The notes below the pieces were generated by a model. That model was not told the DNA's origin, searched no databases, and was given only the letters and a program-made list of their open reading frames with translations. Shown here in pieces: positions 3,481-53,168 of a DNA stretch of 64,000 bases (position 1 is its first letter; each line of letters starts with the position of its first letter). The position numbers and the translations under genes were made by a program. Where the stretch lies: the NCBI GenBank assembly GCA_029582265.1, contig CM055816.1, positions 27,200,366 through 27,264,365 of the forward strand. The letters are read 5' to 3'. Source of the stretch: Zoroaster sp. YZ-2022 (lineage: Eukaryota > Echinodermata > Asteroidea > Forcipulatida > Zoroasteridae).

Positions 3481-3785
3481 CCATAAATAGCCTCAGATTG
3501 CACCAGAGAGCATCTAGAACCTAAACAAAAAAATTAGGGGGTGGGAATATGCAACGAGTGACACGGCAGCTTTAGAGTTGTATGCCTTAATCTCGTACTT
3601 AGTTATTACATTATCAACCATTCAAAGACTTAATATCTCTTTAATTCGAAATATATGTGAATATGTACACAATCCTCTCTAGACACAAGTCGGTATCCAT
3701 ATCGACATTTCTTATCTTCAGTCTAAACTGTTTCCGATAGTGACACCATGTGAAACTCTCAATTGACTTGTAACGGTCCTGGAGG

Positions 3786-3975
3786 GGGTATCGATGGAGA
3801 GGGTGTTAATGGAGGGGGGTGTCGATGGAGGGGGTGTCGATAGAGGGGTGTCATTGGAGGGGATGTCGATGGAGAGGGTGTCAATGGAGAGGGTGTCAAT
3901 GGAGAGGGTGTCGATGGATAGGGTGTTATTGGAGAAGGGTGTCAGTGGAGAGGGTGTCAATGGAGAGGATGGGAG
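3786..3975. repeat. 15-bp minisatellite GGTGTCGATGGAGRG
   Basis: Tandem imperfect 15-bp units fill this stretch. The same minisatellite occurs at 12,222-12,420 and 52,446-52,740 with different copy numbers. Because 15 is a multiple of three, all frames stay open, which explains the short SIDTL-like repeat reading frames here; they are not genes. Confidence 0.9.
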
Positions 3976-4135
3976 TGTAAAAATTATTGTGTATCGCCTT
4001 TTCTCTTCCTTTTAACGCCCCCAAGCCACGGCCATCATTAGTGGTATCAATGGAGAGGGATGTAAAGTGTTTGAAGTTTGCCTTCCAACCCTTAGCCACC
4101 CTGGCTATCTGCCTGTTTCAGGATGGTTACCACAA

Positions 4136-4700
4136 ATTGCTCAATCGACATTCATACAAAATATCCAATCAGAGTGATTATTACACATCACATGTGATTG
4201 ACAATCAGCAAGAGGGGGAGGGGTCAAACTGACCAATTGACATTCATACACGTCATGCGATCAGAGTCATTACATAAAATCACATGTGATTGGCAATCGG
4301 CAAAGAGGGGGAGGGGTTTATCACAAATTGACCAATTGACATTCATACACTACATCCAATCAGAGTGATTATTACACATCACATGTGATTGACAATCAGC
4401 AAGAGGGGGAGGGGTCAAACTGACCAATTGACATTCATGCACGACATGCGATCAGAGTCATTACATAAAATCACGTGGTTGGCAATCGGCAAAGAGGGGG
4501 AGGGGTTTATCACAAATTGACCAACTGACATTCATACACTACGTGCGATCGGAGTCATTACATAAAATCACATGTGATTGGCAATCGGCAAAGAGGGGGA
4601 GGGGTTTATCACAAATTGACCAATTGACATTCATACACTACATCCAATCAGAGTGATTATTACACACACATGATTGCAATCGTTTACAATAGGCCCATCG
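4136..4700. repeat. 92-99-bp tandem array (first copy)
   Basis: About six units, each with CAATTGACATTCATACAC, ATCAGAGT, TCACATGTGATTG and an AGAGGGGGAGGGG tract. Measured spacings between GTGATTG motifs are 92 and 99 bp. Homologous arrays lie at 12,490-13,235 and 52,905-53,168. Short open frames through the array are repeat artefacts. Confidence 0.9.
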
Positions 4701-11930: not shown

Positions 11931-12221
11931 CCAGAGAGGATAGGGGAGTGGGAATATGCAACGACGGCAGCTTTAGAGTTGTATGCCTTAATCTCGTACT
12001 CAGTTATTACATTATCAACCATTCAAAGACTTAATGTCTCTTTAATTCGAAATATATGTGAATGTGATTTCCTTTATTTATGCTACAATCTCGTCTCAAA
12101 CAAGTACACAATCCTCTCTAGACACAAGTCGGTATCCATATCGACATTTCTTATCTTCAGTCTAAACTGTTTCCGATAGTGACACCATGTGAAACTCTCA
12201 ATTGACGTGTAACGGTCCTGG

Positions 12222-12420
12222 AGGGGGTATCGATGGAGAGGGTGTTAATGGTGGGGGGGGGGGGGGGGTGTCGATGGAGGGGGTGTCGATAGAGGGGTGT
12301 CATTGGAGGGGGTGTCGATGGAGAGGGTGTCAATGGAGAGGGTGTCGACGGAGGGGTCGATGGAGAGGTGTGTTTGGAGAAGGGTGTCAGTGGAGAGGAT
12401 ATCAATGGAGAAGGATGTAA
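12222..12420. repeat. 15-bp minisatellite (second copy)
   Basis: Homologue of 3,786-3,975, including a G run near 12,252-12,267. Unit composition is GGTGTCRATGGAGRG. Reading frames through it are repeat artefacts. Confidence 0.88.
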
Positions 12421-12489
12421 AGTGTTTGAAGTTTGCCTTCCAACCCTTAGCCACCCTGGCTATCTGCCCCTGTTCCAGGAAGGTTACCA

Positions 12490-13235
12490 CAAATTGCTCA
12501 ATCGACATTCATACAAAATATCCAATCAGAGTGATTATTACACATCACATGTGATTGACAATCAGCAAGAGGGGGAGGGGTCAAACTGACCAATTGACAT
12601 TCATACACGACATGCGATCAGAGTCATTACATAAAATCACATGTGATTGGCAATCGGCAAAGAGGGGGAGGTGTTTATCACAAATTGACCAATTGACATT
12701 CATACACTACGTGCGATCAGAGTCATTACATAAAATCACATATGATTGGCAATCGTCAAAGAGGGGGAGGGGTTTATCACAAATTGACCAATTGACATTC
12801 ATACACTACATCCAATCAGAGTGATTATTACACATCACATGTGATTGACAATCAGCAAGAGGGGGAGGGGTCAAACTGACCAATTGACATTCATACACGA
12901 CATGCGATCAGAGTCATTACATAAAATCACATGTGATTGGCAATCGGCAAAGAGGGGGAGGTGTTTATCACAAATTGACCAATTGACATTCATACACTAC
13001 GTGCGATCAGAGTCATTACATAAAATCACATATGATTGGCAATCGTCAAAGAGGGGGAGGGGTTTATCACAAATTGACCAACTGACATTCATACACTACG
13101 TGCGATCAGAGTCATTACATAAAATCACATGTGATTGGCAATCGGCAAAGAGGAGGGGTTTATCACAAATTTACCAATTGACATTCATACACTACATCCA
13201 ATCACATTGATTACACACATATGATTGGCAATCGT
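12490..13235. repeat. 92-99-bp tandem array (second copy)
   Basis: About eight units of the type described at 4,136. A higher-order repetition of three or four units is visible: about 12,530-12,710 is repeated almost exactly at 12,830-13,010. Continuous frames of 89 and 121 residues result from this regularity. Confidence 0.9.
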
Positions 13236-41716: not shown

Positions 41717-43038
41717 TAGGTTTAAAAGTGGCAGTGATTTCTAGAGACAACGAGAGGGATGGTATAAGTAGGACCCCTAGCTAACCTAGTACCCCTACAC
41801 GACTCTGGATCTCTCCCGACTCCCCCGGAACCACTAGACGCCCAGACTGACATTCCCAATTGAAATATGTAGGATTTTTAATTTGTTTATTTTCTCGTTG
41901 TTATTCTGTCTACGTACACAAATGTACTGCCCACTTTTTCTTTATAGAATTCTAGAAGAAATCGTTAAGTGTTATACTTGGACGTGATGTATGTTTTGTA
42001 ACAAAAATAGAAATACACCAATGGCTACCATGTCAGCGATACAATCGTTTTGAAATCATGGGAAACAGTTCAGTCTTTGTAATAACACATTGAATTATTA
42101 TTGCCTTGGAGTCCAGGTTGAAAACAAGTGTGCGTGTTTTCAATACGCGCGCGTATGATGCATATAAGTTATGAAGAGGATAGATCCAGTCGTAAGATCA
42201 TACCTCTCGCTCTGTCTTCTTCATAAGTTATATGCATTTGTGTACATAGGCAGAATTATACTTGCACAATAATTATTAAAAGTGATTAATGAAATTTCGA
42301 GAAATTTAAGAAGAAAATTTAAAAGTTTTATATTTGATTAATTGCTTAGTTGTAGTTGCTATTTCTTTTTCTTTAATTGAAAATGGCTAAATTGTTGTTA
42401 TAACGTATTATAACATCGTAGCAATGAGGCAGGTGTTGCGGGATGCAAGGTTCAAAATAAACAGGACAAGATGATTATGTCCAATTGCCAATTCACCACA
42501 TCACAGGGTTAAGAGATGAATATGTTGTGCGAGCTGAAAATAAGAAGACAAAATCTGCGAACTATTGCGAAATGTCAACCTGTCAGTTCCGGTCCATGGC
42601 AAACTCCTACTGGTATGGATAACTACAAGATTCAATTTACGCTATTAAAAGGAAAAGCAATTAGACTAATTAATGGCTTACTGTTAGCGTTTCCCCTGCG
42701 AATGGATTGTAAATAATATATTATGAGATTTTACGCTCTTATACATTCACTGCGATCACTGCGAAAAATAAAAATAAAAACATGTGATATTGATAAAAAC
42801 GATTAAGTTTACTCACATGTTTAAAGCTACAATTATTACTAACAACAATCCAATGTAAAGTTAATAAAACAATAATTTCAACAATAATAACATTTGTCCT
42901 GTAGGCCCTACTCCATTTTAAATTAAAAAATGGGTTTGATATTAGTTGAGAAAAATGTGACAGAATTACATGAGATGAAACACGTGCACGTGTAAACATG
43001 TTAAAACCTACCAATTGAAAAGCAAGAAATATTTTTAT
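41717..43038. repeat. 1,322-bp tandem unit, first copy
   Basis: The unit starts TAGGTTTAAAAGTGGCAGTG and ends AGAAATATTTTTAT. It is followed directly by a copy offset by exactly 1,322 bp. Only a few differences are visible, e.g. CAGTCGTAAG here versus CAGTGGTAAG in the second. It is a truncated composite unit with the usual landmarks. Confidence 0.95.
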
Positions 43039-44360
43039 TAGGTTTAAAAGTGGCAGTGATTTCTAGAGACAACGAGAGGGATGGTATAAGTAGGACCCCT
43101 AGCTAACCTAGTACCCCTACACGACTCTGGATCTCTCCCGACTCCCCCGGAACCACTAGACGCCCAGACTGACATTCCCAATTGAAATATGTAGGATTTT
43201 TAATTTGTTTATTTTCTCGTTGTTATTCTGTCTACGTACACAAATGTACTGCCCACTTTTTCTTTATAGAATTCTAGAAGAAATCGTTAAGTGTTATACT
43301 TGGACGTGATGTATGTTTTGTAACAAAAATAGAAATACACCAATGGCTACCATGTCAGCGATACAATCGTTTTGAAATCATGGGAAACAGTTCAGTCTTT
43401 GTAATAACACATTGAATTATTATTGCCTTGGAGTCCAGGTTGAAAACAAGTGTGCGTGTTTTCAATACGCGCGCGTATGATGCATATAAGTTATGAAGAG
43501 GATAGATCCAGTGGTAAGATCATACCTCTCGCTCTGTCTTCTTCATAAGTTATATGCATTTGTGTACATAGGCAGAATTATACTTGCACAATAATTATTA
43601 AAAGTGATTAATGAAATTTCGAGAAATTTAAGAAGAAAATTTAAAAGTTTTATATTTGATTAATTGCTTAGTTGTAGTTGCTATTTCTTTTTCTTTAATT
43701 GAAAATGGCTAAATTGTTGTTATAACGTATTATAACATCGTAGCAATGAGGCAGGTGTTGCGGGATGCAAGGTTCAAAATAAACAGGACAAGATGATTAT
43801 GTCCAATTGCCAATTCACCACATCACAGGGTTAAGAGATGAATATGTTGTGCGAGCTGAAAATAAGAAGACAAAATCTGCGAACTATTGCGAAATGTCAA
43901 CCTGTCAGTTCCGGTCCATGGCAAACTCCTACTGGTATGGATAACTACAAGATTCAATTTACGCTATTAAAAGGAAAAGCAATTAGACTAATTAATGGCT
44001 TACTGTTAGCGTTTCCCCTGCGAATGGATTGTAAATAATATATTATGAGATTTTACGCTCTTATACATTCACTGCGATCACTGCGAAAAATAAAAATAAA
44101 AACATGTGATATTGATAAAAACGATTAAGTTTACTCACATGTTTAAAGCTACAATTATTACTAACAACAATCCAATGTAAAGTTAATAAAACAATAATTT
44201 CAACAATAATAACATTTGTCCTGTAGGCCCTACTCCATTTTAAATTAAAAAATGGGTTTGATATTAGTTGAGAAAAATGTGACAGAATTACATCAGATGA
44301 AACACGTGCACGTGTAAACATGTTAAAACCTACCAATTGAAAAGCAAGAAATATTTGTAT
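43039..44360. repeat. 1,322-bp tandem unit, second copy
   Basis: Almost identical to the preceding unit. Differences seen include ACATCAGATG at 44,291 versus ACATGAGATG at 42,969. At its right edge it continues into ATTTGTATGTCTAAAAAAATA, as intact composite units do, instead of into another tandem junction. Confidence 0.95.
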
Positions 44361-45113: not shown

Positions 45114-47684
45114 ATATTATCTATAACAGTCCAAACAGTACTGACGCTTTTTATAAGCAGGGTGGATCCAGGGTAGCTGAAATGAAAATGAGACATCAAA
45201 AAGGGGTGAAACTGCCTAAAAGAGGTCCACATATATAAAGTGTAGGGTAAATTTATTGCAAGGTGATGAATGGACACTTGTCCTCTTTGCCTACCTCCTT
45301 TATCCGCTAATCTTCCCCCTGGCTCCCTCGATCTGCCAATGATACTTAGTATTAGTTTTCATATAGCAACAAGCAAATGCATTTGTGCCTTTACGTGGTG
45401 TCTGATGGGGAGGTGATGTTAAAAAGTGGCAGTGATTTCTAGAGACAGCGAGAGGGATGGTATAAGTAGGACCCCTAGCTAACCTAGTACCCCTACACGA
45501 CTCTGGATCTCTCCCGATCCCCCGGAACCCCTAGATGCCCAGACTGACATTCCCAATTGAAATATGTAGGATTTTTAATTTGTTTATTTTCTCGTTGTTA
45601 TTCTGTCTACGTACACAAATGTACTATCCACTTTATCTTAAAAGAATTCTAGATGAAATCGTAAAGTGTTATACTTGGACGTGATGTATGTTTTGTAAAA
45701 GAATAGAAATATACCAATGGCTACCATTGCTACCACTGCTACTCAAAGTTGACCATGAATATTCATATATCTAAGGCTTGTTCGGCTGCTTTTTCCATCT
45801 GCATAACATTAGAAGTATTAGTAAGTTTTTATCTCGTGAGTCTCTATTGACCTTAGTCCATGCTTTTGTTACCAGTCGAATGGATTATTGTAACAGCTTA
45901 TTGTACGGTCTACCGAAAAGTCAATTAGCCAAACTACAACCAGAATGCTTCGGCCAGACTTGTGTTCAACCCACCTAGGTTTCAGCATATAACACCAATT
46001 CTTCGCAAATTACATTGGCTACCTGTTTCGTTTAGGATTAATTTAATTTTTTTTGTGTTAACTTTCAAGGCACTCCATGGTTTATCTCCAGTGTACATAA
46101 AAAGTTTCATTAGTAATTAACAAAGGTTCCCGTTATAATCTCCGGTCAAGTAGTAATGGTCTTATTTTAGAGTACTCTAAGGGCAAGATGCTTGCTACGC
46201 TGGGTGCTAGAGCATTTTCATTGGCAGCGCCAGTGCTCTGGAATGTACTCCCGCACCACATTCGCAATGAACAGACACTTGATTCTTTTAAACGTAAGAT
46301 TAAAACATACCTTTTTAATGAAGCTATTAAATTTGTAAATTAATTTCCTTAATTACACTTTTGATGAGAACCAAGCTAGTTAGGCTATATTCCTTTAATT
46401 AGTATAGGTAGGTTAAAGGCTTCTGTCTCCGGGAAAGATCGAGACATCACCGATGCCAGTGGGGGTACATTGACATAGATCCTCCTCTGGCGGGACAGAC
46501 GTAAACCCATACTGAGGTTTGGGCGCTGGCTTGGCAACCTCATTTGTTCTTCTGATTAAAAAAAAGGGGGAGTTTGTTTGTATTTATTTCTGTTTATTCA
46601 ATGGTGTCTTTATTTTAATTTGTTATGCGCTTTTGATCATTTTAAATGGAAACAGCGCAATAGAAATGTTTAATTTATTATTATATTATTATTACCATGT
46701 CAGCGATACAATCCTTTTGAAATCATGGAAAACAGTTCAGTCTTTGTAACAACACATTGAATTATTATTGCCTTGGAGTCACAAGTTGAAAACAAAGTGT
46801 GCGTGCTTTCAATACGCGCGCGTATGACGCATATAAGTTTTGAAACTGATAAATCCAGTGGTAAGATCATACCTCTCGCTCTATCTTCTTCATAAGTTAT
46901 ATATGCATTTGTGTACGTAGGCAGTGATTAATGAAATTTCGAGAAATTTAAGAAGAAAATTTCAAAGTTTTATATTTGATTAATTGCTTAGTTGTTAGTT
47001 GCTATTTCTTTTTCTTTCATTGAAAATGGCTAAATTGTTGTTATAACGTATTATAACATCATAGCAATGAGGCAGGTGTTGCGGGATTCAAGGTTCAAAA
47101 TAAACAGGACAAGATGATTACGTCCAATGGACAATTCACCACATCACAGGGTTAAGAGATGAATATGTTGTGCTAGCTGAAAATAAGAAGACAAAATCTG
47201 CAAACTATTGCGAAATGTCAACCTGTCAGTTCCGGTCCATTGCAAACTCCTACTGGTATGGATAACAAAAAGATTCAATTTACGCTATTAAAAGGGAAAG
47301 CCATTTAGACTAATTAATGGCTAACAATTAGCGTTTCCCTTGCGGATGGATTGTAAATAATATATTATGAGATTTTACGCTCTTATAAATTCACTGCGAT
47401 GACGACCAATATCACACCCAAAAAAATGTGATATTGATAAAAACGATTAACTTTACTCACATGTTTAAAGCTACAATTATTACTAACAACAATCCAATGT
47501 AAAGTGAATAAAACAATAATTTCAACAATAATAACATTAATTGTCCTATAGGCCCTACTCCATTTTAAATTAAAAAATGGGATTGATATTAGTTGAGAAA
47601 AATGTGACAGAATTACATGAGATGAAACACGTGCACGTGTCAACATGTTAAAACCTACCAATTGAAAAGCAAGAAATATTTTTA
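45114..47684. repeat. Composite repeat unit, copy E (LINE-interrupted)
   Basis: The closest relative of copy D, with the same LINE at the same base. The right end joins the next unit at TTTTTATAAGGTTTAAAAG, the same kind of junction as at 41,716 and 43,038. Confidence 0.85.
45728..46692 (+). mobile_element. 5'-truncated L2/CR1-type LINE, second copy
   Basis: Flanked by a perfect TACCAT duplication (45,722-45,727 and 46,693-46,698). It keeps a longer 5' part than the copy at 39,867: FHLHNIRSISKFLSRESL, LVHAFVTSRMDYCNSLLYG. It carries several frameshifts, for example after SQLAKLQ near 45,937. The same 3' UTR and (ATT)n end follow. It is non-functional. Confidence 0.85.
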
Positions 47685-48257
47685 TAAGGTTTAAAAGTGG
47701 CAGTGATTTCTAGAGACGACGAGAGGGATGGTATAAGTAGGACCCCTAGCTAACCTAGTTCCCCTACACGACTCTGGATCTCTCCCGACTCCCCCGGAAC
47801 CCCTAGATTCCCAAACTGACATTCCCAATTGAGATATGTAGGATTTTTAATTTGTTTATTTTCTCGTTGTTATTCTGTCTACGTACACAAATGTATACTA
47901 CCCACTTTTTCTTTATAGAATTCTAGAAGAAATCGTTAAGTGTTATACTTGGACGTGATGTATGTTTTGTAAAAGAATAGAAATACACCAATGGCTACCA
48001 TGTCAGCGATATAATCGTTTTGAAATCATGGAAAACAGTTCAGTCTTTGTAATAACACATTTAATTATTATTGCCTTGGAGTCACAAGTTGAAAACAAAT
48101 GTGCGTGCTTTCAATACGCGCGCGTATGACGCATATAAGTTTTGAAAAGGATAGATCCAGTGGTAAGATCATACCTCTCGCTCTGTCTTCTTCATAAGTT
48201 ATATGCATTTGTGTACGTACACTCTTAAAACTCCCGGGTCAGATTTGACCCAAACTT

Positions 48258-48480
48258 CGGGTTGGATATGACCCGACACTTTACGGGTCAGAATGACCCG
48301 GAAAGTTGGGTCAAAATATTTGACCCGGAAAAGGGTCATATCAGCTGACCCTATTCCGGGTCAAAAATTGTTTCTGACCCGGAATAGGGTCAGCTGATAT
48401 GACCCTATTCCGGGTCAAATTTTTTGACCCAACTTTCCGGGTCATTCTGACCCGTAAAGTGTCGGGTCATATCCAACCCG
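48258..48480. repeat. 223-bp near-perfect hairpin of GGGTCA/TGACCC motifs
   Basis: Arms of about 105 bp run from CGGGTTGGATATGACCCGAC to its complement ending TCATATCCAACCCG. The loop is about 11 nt, AAAATTGTTTC, near 48,365-48,375. It is the enlarged left terminus of the transposon. Confidence 0.9.
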
Positions 48481-49565
48481 GGCTCCAGGGTCAAATTTAT
48501 TTTAACCCGAGTTCCGGGTCAGAAAAGATAAGCATGATTTCCATGTATTGAGAAGCCTTATCTATGGCAAGCAATACTAAGATTTTAAAATAAAACAAAT
48601 TTCAGGTTTATAAACCCTTACAAAAGGTTTCTCAAATAGTAAATTGCCATAAATAAGGGCATCTGTATGTAAGGAAAACATGCTTACCTTGTATGTCAGG
48701 ATGGCCAAACTTAAAGGGAAGATAACAATCAAATTTGAAGGATAGCTCTAAAATGAAAAGAAACAAACAATAAATTACCTGCTATTGGTCACATGTATTT
48801 ATTTCTCTTTGGCAAAGGAAAACATGTATGTGTATAAAGTATATAAAGTCATTTTAAATTGATTATTAACTGAATAGAACCTGACTGAATTATTACCTTA
48901 ACGTTTTTTACTCTAGTATATGATTCCAAACATTTTGTTCGACATGCTGTGACACTGTCAAACGTTACATGTACATATATGTAGAAAATTCAAATCGGAA
49001 ATGGATATCAGCTGATGTTCCTTTTCACATTAGAATGAATACAAACATTGATAAACATTTACTTAACTGTACAATAACTGTGTGATCTTGCAAATTATAG
49101 TTCAAATACATGTACAAAGATATGAACAAGTGTGATTTATTTTTCCCGAAACAAGATGAAACTTGAATGTAGTAGTTTTGTTTTGACAGAAAACAAATGA
49201 AGTTCAATGTCTCAAAGGGTTCTCATACAAGATTAAAAAAATACATGTGTTTAGGTTACTGTTACACACAGTTGAGGTAAGCACAATAATTAATATATTT
49301 TATATAAAAAAATAAGCTTTTTAAGAGAGCCCAAATTTCCTCGGCCCTTGTAGCATGTGAATATACATCCCCTGAAACTCTCTGACCATAACGTAAAAAC
49401 TTCAATGTCAATGCAGTTAATGCACAATACAAAAACTTCAGGTAAAACAAATAACAAGCATATCTCAAACAATATAAAAAAGTGGCATTAGCAAAACAAA
49501 ACAAATCTAGGCTAGGCTGTTTGTCAAGTAATTCTTATATTAAAACTAAGTAAAGCTTATTTGTG

Positions 49566-49760
49566 GTGCCACCATGAAGAAATTTTCTTTTGAACAGTAA
49601 GAATCGATTGGTTACAACTAAACTTTTTCTATCAGTATGCTCCGAGCTCTAGTTGTAACCAACCGTTTTTTTTTTCAGAACTATTTACTACTCAAAAGAG
49701 AATTTCTACATGGTGTCACCACAAACATTCTTCACCTATCCTTTTTCACCATGGAAAGCT
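49566..49760. mobile_element. Diverged foldback element nested in the transposon
   Basis: Starts GGTGCCACCATGAAG and ends with TACATGGTGTCACCAC then CACCATGGAAAGCTAC. Central inverted phrases are GGTTACAACTA and TAGTTGTAACC. It belongs to the GGTGACACCATG family described at 17,237. Confidence 0.65.
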
Positions 49761-49825
49761 ACTAGTCTTGAAACTAAAACTATTGATCAGCATTGAGGGT
49801 AATTTTTTTTTCAATGTACTTTAAG

Positions 49826-50828
49826 TTAGATAGATGCTTGTTTTGAATTTAGATAAGCTCTTAGTGACCTTACACAGCCCGATGTTTGTGGTTTCCCCTT
49901 TCCCTCCCCTAGTAGAAAAATCCCCTTCTGAATAAATTCCCATGTGGTGGCACACTGCCAGGGATAAGACATGTCAATAATATAAAACAATTTAAAACAT
50001 ACATCCAGTCCTTTGAGCAGGGAGTTAACCTCCACTGCTCGATGTTCAATGATGACAAACACCTGCTCTGGCTCCAACATCTCACCCAGCAATAATATGA
50101 AGTGTTCTTGCTTGACTCTCTCCAGGTATGAGGGTATGTTGGTACCAACCTGGATTAAAAAGAGAAAGGGAAAAAACATTTTTAAAATTAAATGAATAAA
50201 AGCGTCCATAAACTATTTAAGTGACCTATTGGCTGATCATTGTTCTGTGGCCAATTTCAATGGGAAAAATAAATAAAATTACAGTGTAAATTTAAATGTG
50301 TGTATTTTGGCATAAAGTTCAGTTATTTATTAGAGGGTGTGTAATGTTGGTCACAACCTTCCCTGCATCCGCCACTGCATATGAAGACATAACGAGGGAA
50401 TGTGTTTAACAACTCACCTTGAACAATAAGCCTTATATTCCTTTGGAACTACTATAACTGTACTCATTCAAACATAACCACTCTCTCAGCCATGTCAGCG
50501 TAGGACTTAACCGTCATTAGTAACACTAGTTTACCTTTTTGGTAAAATAATTGAACACAATCATCTTTATTTACGAGTTGACCACAATGAGTACGAGTTG
50601 GCTTGTACACCGTTACTAAGCGTTAGGCCTACTTAGGCTATCGAGATCGGACCCCTCTCGACATCAATCCACGACGGCCACCAACATAAAAATCCATAAC
50701 GTTAACGTTACATTTGTACAATATACAATGTATTACTAGCACCAATGTAAGTTGAACATACCTTCAAATGCAGTCAGATACGGAGAAAGCTCCCATTTCT
50801 GTAATGTTTCTTGAACAAATTTATCCAT
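49826..50828 (-). pseudogene. SAMD3-like gene remnant inside transposon
   Basis: The first exon (50,828-50,762, minus) encodes MDKFVQETLQKWELSPYLTA, the start of a SAM-type domain, and ends at a good donor AAG|GTATGT in phase 1. A final exon (50,149-49,826) follows the acceptor TTTTTAATCCAG. It encodes about 107 residues, with EHFILLLGEMLEPEQVFVII, LLKGLDVCFKLFYIIDMSYP and CATTWEFIQKGIF, then a stop. This matches the C-terminal module I recognise from multicopy 'SAM domain-containing protein 3-like' proteins of fish and invertebrates. The exons differ in phase, so at least one internal exon with the rest of the SAM domain is missing or unrecognised. Hence I call it a remnant. CCGCCATCTT (50,914-50,905), a YY1-type element, lies about 77 nt before the ATG. 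Confidence 0.6.
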
Positions 50829-50899
50829 GATAGTTGATACTGAAGGACTAGTTTTAACGTTACTTGCTCACTGCGTACACGTACACGACAATTAGCATT

Positions 50900-50920
50900 T
50901 AGAAAAGATGGCGGACACAG
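50900..50920 (-). promoter_or_regulatory. YY1-like element near the SAMD3-like start
   Basis: Minus-strand CCGCCATCTT, plus strand AAGATGGCGG. Such sites are often found at transcription starts of TATA-less promoters. Its position upstream of the first exon suggests the transposon carries its own promoter. Confidence 0.45.
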
Positions 50921-51880
50921 TACCTTCGAAAACGTAACTTGAGCCGCGCATACAGCACGTCATATACCACGTGCCAGTTTTTGTCCAATCAAAACATTGC
51001 ATGACGTCAACCATCTATAAAATTGACCCAGAAAAGGGTCAATTTATTTTGACCCGGAAAAAGGGTCAACATTTTGACCCGGGAGTTTTTAGAGTGTAGG
51101 CAGAATTATACTTGCTCAATAATTATTAAAAGTGATTAATGAAATTTCGAGAAATTTAAGAAGAAAATTTCAAAGTTTTATATTTGATTAATTGCTTAGT
51201 TGTTAGTTGCTATTTCTTTTCTTTCATTGAAAATGGCTAAATTGTTGTTACAACGTATTATAACATCATAGCAATGAGGCAGGTGTTGCGGGATTCAAGG
51301 TTCAAAATAAACAGGACAAGATTATTATATCCAATGGACAATTCACCACATCACAGGGTTAAGAGATGAATATGTTGTGCTAGCTGAAAATAAGAAGACA
51401 AAATCTGCGAACTATTGCGAAATGTCAACCTGTCAGTTCCGGTCCATTGCAAACTCCTACTGGTATGAATAACTACACGATTCAATTTACGCTATTAAAA
51501 GGAAAAGCCATTTAGACTAATGGCTTACTATTAGTGTTTCCCCTGCGGATGGATTGTAAATAATATATTATGAGATTTTACGCTCTTATAAATTCACTGC
51601 GATCACGATCAACATCGCACAAAAATAAATTAAAAACTTGTGATATTGATAAAAACGATTAACTTTACTCACATGTAAAGTGAATAAAACAATAATTTCA
51701 ACAATAATAACATGAGTCATGAAGGCCGTACTCCATTTTAAATTTAAAAATGGGTTTGATATTAGTTGAGAAAAATGTGACAGAATTACATCAGATGAAA
51801 CACGTAGACGTGTAAACATGTTAAAACCTACCAATTGAAAAGCAAGAAATATTTTTATGTCCAAAAAAATATGGTTTTGT

Positions 51881-52445: not shown

Positions 52446-52740
52446 GGGGTGTCATTGGAGGGGGTGTCGACAGAGGGGGTGTCGACGGAGGGGTGTCGAC
52501 GGAGGGGTGTCGATGAAGGTGTCGTTGGAGGGGGTGTCGATGGAGGGGATGTCTATGGAGGGGTGTCGATGGAAGAGGTGTTATTGGAGGGGATGTCGAT
52601 GGAGGGTGTGTCGATGGTGAGGGGGTCTCTATGGAGGGGATGTCTATGGAGGGGTGTCGATGGAGGGGGTGTCGATGGAGGAGGTGTTATTGGAGGGGAT
52701 GTCGATCGACGAAGAGGGTGTCAATGGAGAGGGTGGGAGT
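52446..52740. repeat. 15-bp minisatellite (third copy)
   Basis: The longest of the three GGTGTCGATGGAGGG arrays in the window, with imperfect units and some 12-15-bp length variation. Confidence 0.88.
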
Positions 52741-52904: not shown

Positions 52905-53168
52905 CTTGCTCAATCGACATTCATACAAAATATCCAATCAGAGTGATTATTACACATCACATGTGATTGGCAATCAGCAAGAGGGGGAGGGGTCAAACTG
53001 ACCAATTGACATTCATACACGACATGCGATCAGAGTCATTACATAAAATCACATATGATTGGCAATCATCAAAGAGGGGGAGGGGTTTATCACAAATTTA
53101 CCAATTGACATCCATACACTACATCCAATCAGATTGATTATTACACACACGTGATTGGCAATCGTTTA
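52905..53168. repeat. 92-99-bp tandem array (third copy)
   Basis: About three units, fewer than at 4,136 and 12,490. Confidence 0.88.

Follow-up and report, generated by a model that had tools for sequence, protein, structure and literature searches.

What is an exon of a SAM-domain gene doing inside a DNA transposon? The question is raised by a 64,000-nucleotide stretch of the genome of the sea star Zoroaster sp. YZ-2022 (assembly GCA_029582265.1, contig CM055816.1, positions 27,200,366 to 27,264,365), referred to here as the window, in which a TA-flanked element holds two exons of such a gene. The first-pass annotation of this sequence offered two explanations, the capture of a host gene or a gene original to the element. 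We consider, with a probability of about 0.8, that the window contains a recent non-autonomous copy of an animal, TA-duplicating CACTA/EnSpm-RAG1 (CMCT) transposon with a two-gene build like that of maize Spm, in which a SAM protein would stand in the place of TNPA. Because the transposase is nested in an intron of the SAM-domain gene in long relatives, the SAM protein, judged from sequence, most likely belongs to the transposon itself and is not a captured host gene.

The element in the window

The limits previously proposed for a 2.88-kb element are exact, and the empty site, TA duplication and inverted termini described with them are borne out. The features are as follows, where the 10.4-kb copy is a long relative discussed below.

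48218..48219, TA target-site duplication, left; sister empty sites hold a single TA
48220..51096, transposon copy of 2,877 bp, read as a non-autonomous internal-deletion derivative; gene on the minus strand
48220..48241, plus strand, terminal inverted repeat on the gene's 3' side, CACTCTTAAAACTCCCGGGTCA
48236..48521, 3' subterminal repeat array with 20 of the element's 25 GGGTCA/TGACCC hexamers
48258..48480, long palindrome within the 3' array, two 110-nt arms, 97% complementary, with a 3-nt gap (223 nt)
49823..50149, minus strand, last exon of the SAM-domain gene, C-terminal domain with the stop included, VFVIIEHRAVEVNSLLKG; acceptor ends at 50150
50454..50456, deletion junction, where longer relatives have at least 2.3 kb
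50762..50828, minus strand, exon 1 of the SAM-domain gene, 22 codons and 1 nt, MDKFVQETLQKWELSPYLTAFE; donor at 50761, G|GTATGT
50905..50914, plus strand, AAGATGGCGG motif upstream of exon 1, shared by the window and 10.4-kb copies
51024..51080, 5' subterminal repeat array with 5 of the 25 hexamers
51075..51096, minus strand, terminal inverted repeat on the gene's 5' side, CACTCTAAAAACTCCCGGGTCA, read 51096-51075
51097..51098, TA target-site duplication, right; sister empty sites hold a single TA

The terminal inverted repeats are 22 bp each and identical at 21 of 22 positions (CACTCT..AGAGTG), and together with the TA they show the 5'-CA..TG-3' ends and the 2-5 bp target duplication of the clade that includes RAG1. 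The terminus pattern has two matches in the window, and two matches were obtained in 0 of 100 shuffles. When the flanks are joined, 231 of 239 columns are identical to an uninterrupted sister repeat at 43451-43688 and 230 of 239 to another at 42129-42366, with one TA at the site in each comparison. A third sister repeat (46890-46975) is also without the element and has a 29-nt deletion adjoining the site.

The element's GGGTCA/TGACCC hexamers all lie in the two end arrays, with 0 between them; the remaining 61 kb of the window contain 18. These arrays are subterminal repeats such as are expected of CACTA/EnSpm in the narrow sense. The palindrome gives a single-strand DNA fold z of -24.8 against shuffles.

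Long relatives with a transposase inside the SAM-domain gene

A 10.4-kb copy (contig C1, about 102573548-102584003; locus L036 joined with the overlapping L015) contains all ten exons of the SAM-domain gene, encoding 517 amino acids with GT-AG introns and 0 stops, and its transposase lies within intron 2 of that gene. L036 is the only one of loci L001-L050 with a transposase match. A second, diverged locus, L051, has a terminus, SAM exon 2, the transposase and SAM-gene exons 4-6 in that order on a single strand, repeating the L036 arrangement at 67% amino-acid identity. The En/Spm-type organisation, in which an accessory gene of several exons houses the transposase frame in one of its introns, is thus found by sequence in L036, and L051 is consistent with it.

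Between the 10.4-kb copy and L051, four pieces of SAM-gene exons are 70% identical in protein and 66% in DNA, with a nonsynonymous divergence (dN) of 0.23 over 125 codons; the corresponding values for a piece of the transposase are 72%, 68% and 0.19 over 328 codons. Synonymous divergence (dS) was not computable for this comparison, which is taken as probable saturation. Judged from these codons, the SAM gene and the transposase have both evolved under protein-level constraint.

Gene remnants in the window copy

The 10.4-kb copy explains what the window copy has lost, for at the deletion junction it holds exons 2-9 and the transposase. The first exon with a good donor, as earlier described, is present, although no more than the initial third of the SAM domain is encoded there; exon 2, which would complete the domain, is deleted. 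The C-terminal exon was correctly recognised (50149-49823, minus strand). The exon boundary sequences are the same as in the 10.4-kb copy, where the phase is 1 at the end of exon 1 and 0 at the start of the last exon; a direct splice between these two in the window copy would thus shift the reading frame. The upstream motif AAGATGGCGG, which we take, as the first-pass annotation did, to be of the YY1 type, lies where it was reported and was not found in the diverged copy L051. The promoter that the first-pass annotation ascribed to the element is putative, being proposed from this single motif.

The description of the exons as SAMD3-like held in that both resemble SAM-type proteins; the name SAMD3 itself is among none of the protein matches listed, whose visible (shortened) names are uncharacterized or hypothetical, including 'uncharacterized protein gramd4a'. 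Among these matches are the 21 of an alignment-based search for a protein of that name. That a transposon carries a SAM-type gene is real; the status of this copy as a deletion derivative and the transposase of its relatives had been missed.

Copies in the genome

The host genome (G000, 1.0 Gb in 616 contigs) gave 115 matches to the element in a DNA search in which 40 of 2,578 candidates were scored, so that copy counts are lower bounds. Thirteen fetched copies fall in the length class of the window copy (2.77-2.91 kb) and are 0.6-1.9% apart, which indicates a recent spread. A script delimited 28 of the 50 loci L001-L050, and TA was present on both sides in 27 of these, the exception being L035; counted as distinct places (L014 and L040 are one place), 26 of 27 have TA on both sides. 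Flanks are shared by L014 with L023, L031 with L032, and L043 with L046, and each of these pairs is therefore more likely one place duplicated than two independent insertions. The window class retains exon 1 and the last exon, while in copies measuring 3.8, 4.3-4.7 or 5.1-5.3 kb the same or more exons remain, without the transposase. Read from these sequences, the window copy is a recent non-autonomous internal-deletion derivative.

Linkage of the two genes

The association of the two genes was examined through protein searches that scored 83 of 508 and 83 of 1,102 candidates; matches lying up to 6 kb (transposase) or 8 kb (SAM gene) apart were joined into loci. The SAM protein search returned at least 85 matches in at least 54 loci, from which 33 loci of the near-identical DNA family were set aside, leaving 21 diverged SAM-gene loci. 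At 11 of these 21 a transposase lies within 15 kb, in all 11 on the same strand and 1.4-4.5 kb upstream. Uniform placement would give 0.05 such loci by chance, and 2,000 contig-matched placements, in which the length of contig C11 is approximate, gave a mean of 0.2 and a maximum of 3. In the near-identical family, 1 of 33 loci has a transposase.

The same pairing is met in other animals. Ten of the 160 proteins retrieved by three pooled protein searches match both the SAM and the transposase profiles, and they come from five phyla: Holothuria (2), Apostichopus, Nymphon, Lineus (2), Trichonephila (2), the fish Xyrauchen and the coral Xenia. Two of them, P0041 and P0159, have the complete order of SAM, transposase and rest. 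In Lytechinus pictus, a SAM-type protein (P0011) and a transposase (P0059) bear consecutive LOC numbers, which suggests that their genes are neighbours.

These observations bear on two alternative explanations. According to the first, the transposon captured a host SAM-domain gene by transduplication, and the SAM gene is a passenger. Transposons can carry pieces of host genes, and the SAM domain is common in animals, as the fold-search matches illustrate. The same gene, however, adjoins the same kind of transposase on the same strand at 11 of 21 diverged loci and in five phyla, both genes are under protein-level constraint, and no named host SAM gene appears among the protein matches listed; we regard capture as highly improbable. 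Of the two options first offered, the evidence thus favours a gene original to the element, with place and strand kept at the 11 loci and in the ten two-part proteins. According to the second, two unrelated transposons are involved, and a transposase element became nested by chance in an intron of a SAM-gene repeat. Most family loci are without a detected transposase, and a 3' flank of the 10.4-kb copy that differs from that of the neighbouring locus L034 means that local rearrangement occurred there. Yet L051 has the same arrangement at its level of divergence, and order and strand are constant in the 11 linked loci and also in other phyla, leaving chance nesting a very slight probability, below even that of capture. 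It is on the L051 order, the two-part proteins and the locus linkage that both explanations were judged unlikely.

On a separate matter of distribution, 50 of 87 transposase matches among the scored candidates lie on contig C1, which makes up 10.7% of the genome.

The transposase and the SAM protein

The transposase has about 840 amino acids, with N-terminal C2H2 fingers, a DDE core of predicted RAG1 fold and a BAH-like C-terminus, two pieces of which had no match to Pfam BAH. Residues D399, C419, C422, H626, H630 and E650 are present in 24 of 24 aligned homologues and D305 in 23 of 24; on this alignment the enzyme has the signature residues of CMC/RAG1, among which the first catalytic D is assigned putatively. 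The catalytic fold predicted is of the RAG1/Transib-like kind. Transposase_21 (tnp2; cut-off 28.6 bits) was matched by 8 of 24 homologues at E<=1, with a best value of 2e-6, and scores among seven proteins examined include 27.6 bits (P0036), 24.4 (P0040), 19.2 (P0041) and 16.9 (P0046). The Plavaka transposase domain (Pfam PF18759) was matched by 4 of 24 at E<=1 (best 5.4e-4). The plant-type core and 3-bp duplication of CACTA/EnSpm in the narrow sense were not found, the ends being CACTC and the duplication TA. A first guess, the IS3EU/GingerRoot superfamily, which excerpts of its description define by a usually 6-bp duplication and TA..TA ends (PMC10045372), was excluded by the 2-bp TA and the CA..TG ends.

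The SAM protein has a SAM fold and matches Pfam SAM_1. In the fold search the well-scoring rows span the SAM domain only (residues 43-113), and no Pfam family lies above its cut-off for the non-SAM parts. A sequence search of solved structures gave a VANC21 chain at E 0.74, which is chance level.

Comparison with known systems

The RAG1-like fold calls for comparison with the RAG systems. Transib and RAG produce a 5-bp target duplication, RAG2 is a propeller protein, and the genes of ProtoRAG are convergent. The present element differs from RAG1/RAG2, ProtoRAG and Transib in its TA duplication, and from RAG1/RAG2 and ProtoRAG also in having a SAM protein in place of RAG2 and nested instead of convergent genes.

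The closest likeness in build is to the plant CACTA elements, for which, as for the animal and fungal elements below, the comparison draws on parts of the cited papers. In maize Spm, intron 1 of tnpA, a multi-exon gene, supplies the large transposase frame (PMC2613891); TNPA recognises subterminal repeats, and both proteins are required (PMC2613891; also PMC1636069). Deletion derivatives are able to move in trans, and Tgmt* has 4 subterminal repeats on the left and 24 on the right (PMC2613891). With En/Spm, Tam1 and Tgmt* the element shares CACT-type ends, subterminal repeats that extend far longer on one side, a multi-exon accessory gene with the transposase frame in one of its 5'-proximal introns, and deletion derivatives, which here would likewise move in trans. 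It differs from this plant group in its TA (2 bp) against a 3-bp duplication, in CACTC and not CACTA ends, in a SAM-domain accessory protein without a Pfam match to a plant accessory family, and in the C2H2 fingers and BAH-like domain of its transposase.

SmTRC1 of Schistosoma, an animal CACTA-like element, has short spliced transcripts that skip the transposase, a 2-bp duplication in 7 of 14 copies and a transposase with a likeness to Transposase_21 (PMC1636069). The present element resembles it and other animal TRC elements: it too is animal and CACTA-like, with a 2-bp duplication and a transposase some of whose homologues show a likeness to Transposase_21, and transcripts that skip the transposase are predicted for it. 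TRC ends are reported to begin with CCC, and other parts of the TRC proteins were not detectably conserved (DeMarco 2006, PMC1636069); by these descriptions the element is set apart through its CACTCT ends and an accessory family recognisable across phyla. The ESTA elements are EnSpm-like with TA duplications, the families described come from Pucciniomycetes, and they carry TET/JBP genes (Kojima 2025, PMC12730594). In common with them, the present element has a TA duplication, CMCT-type CA..TG ends, the motifs C(2)C and H(3-4)H and a likeness to RAG1. Compared by description, ESTA is fungal with TET/JBP genes, whereas the present element is animal with a SAM protein, and the main text of the ESTA paper contains neither 'SAM domain' nor 'SAMD3' (PMC12730594).

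A proposed mechanism

Beside the observed anatomy, linkage and conservation of the two-gene element, a working scheme may be set. As in maize Spm, alternative splicing would draw both products from one transcription unit. The transposase would cut the CACTCT ends, and the SAM protein, in the role of TNPA, might gather on the GGGTCA/TGACCC repeats at both ends, oligomerise through its SAM domain, and assist in end pairing or in the control of expression. The short copies, that in the window among them, retain ends and repeats and would move in trans.

A different role for the SAM protein would be that of an anti-silencing or chromatin factor, or of a regulator of the element's promoter, instead of a DNA-binding partner. 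VANC is an anti-silencing-type gene carried by a DNA transposon, and the VANC21 match, at chance level, is of this kind. Fungal TET/JBP genes are a further example of such cargo, as parts of PMC12730594 describe, and the BAH-like domain on a transposase homologue suggests that the element may deal with chromatin. Against this role stand the asymmetric subterminal repeats and the intron-nested transposase, as found in Spm with its repeat-binding partner; by that analogy we think it unlikely, if worth keeping in mind.

More broadly, and only tentatively, a widespread animal transposon lineage may use a two-protein machine, in which a chromatin-reading transposase of RAG1 fold with a BAH domain acts with a SAM partner; this partner would pair the ends by polymerising along the subterminal repeats. 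Its family would extend from cnidarians to fish, would be kept by intron-nesting, and would be shared with plant Spm by ancestry or have evolved twice.

Points that weigh against the two-gene reading

Several observations count against reading the window copy as a derivative of an Spm-like two-gene transposon. In the 10.4-kb copy the transposase is split into two frames, and its 3' end is followed by CA and not TA. Compared with L034, its 5' flank is common and its 3' flank different, so that, with the CA, the copy may be recombinant, and no clean insertion complete in all its parts was found among the copies examined; on the sequence, local duplication or recombination has shuffled elements around L034 and L036 (C1, about 102.546-102.584 Mb). 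L051 yielded no exon 1 or 3, and in the 4.1 kb that follow neither the final exons of the SAM gene nor the 3' end; this locus is accordingly diverged and truncated or interrupted. No transposase partner was found at 10 of the 21 diverged SAM-gene loci, and no SAM-gene partner at 66 of 78 transposase loci in the linkage test; L051 is counted among the 66 yet carries SAM exons, which means that the test overlooks diverged pairs. The fused proteins, being predicted gene products, are better evidence for contig order than for a real fusion, and in one, P0114 of a spider, the SAM-like part follows the transposase, an exception to nesting. The best Transposase_21 score, 27.6 bits, is below the 28.6 cut-off, P0058 is unmatched, and so is the L051 enzyme at E<=1. 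Pfam SAM_1 scores 20.9 bits on the element's own model, against a cut-off of 23. Finally, how the genes are spliced and that the transposase frame is used are predictions from gene structure, and DNA binding by the SAM protein is proposed by analogy with TNPA.

Implications

One set of multicopy, uncharacterized animal SAM-domain proteins is most likely the second gene of a DNA transposon, and genome annotations that count such proteins as host genes would need correcting. If the two-protein lineage is real, many uncharacterized SAM-type proteins of aquatic animals would be transposon proteins. Animal CACTA-like elements would gain a conserved accessory protein, where the SmTRC1 work, in the parts considered, saw none conserved (PMC1636069). 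The TNPA question of how a partner protein pairs the ends would become testable with a polymer-forming domain, and the RAG1-like fold with a BAH-like domain offers a lead on chromatin-reading transposons. In the literature outside Repbase, preprints and most subscription papers, SAMD3 was not found linked with transposon and transposase, nor were EnSpm, SAM domain and transposase, or BAH domain, transposase and CACTA, found in combination; 'sterile alpha motif' was not found in a limited sample of related literature.

Other repeats in the window

The repeat that received the element recurs in the window, beginning at 2552, 10941, 35571, 40833, 42129 and 43451, and at 46798-48219 and 51099-51858 on either side of the element. 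Two of its copies are 96-97% identical, which indicates local duplication. Satellite-like 99/191-bp arrays and 15-bp GGGGTGTCGATGGAG-type arrays co-occur at three places:

4127-4659, 12484-13215, 52911-53163; 3780-3968, 12219-12411, 52446-52735, satellite-like and GGGGTGTCGATGGAG-type arrays

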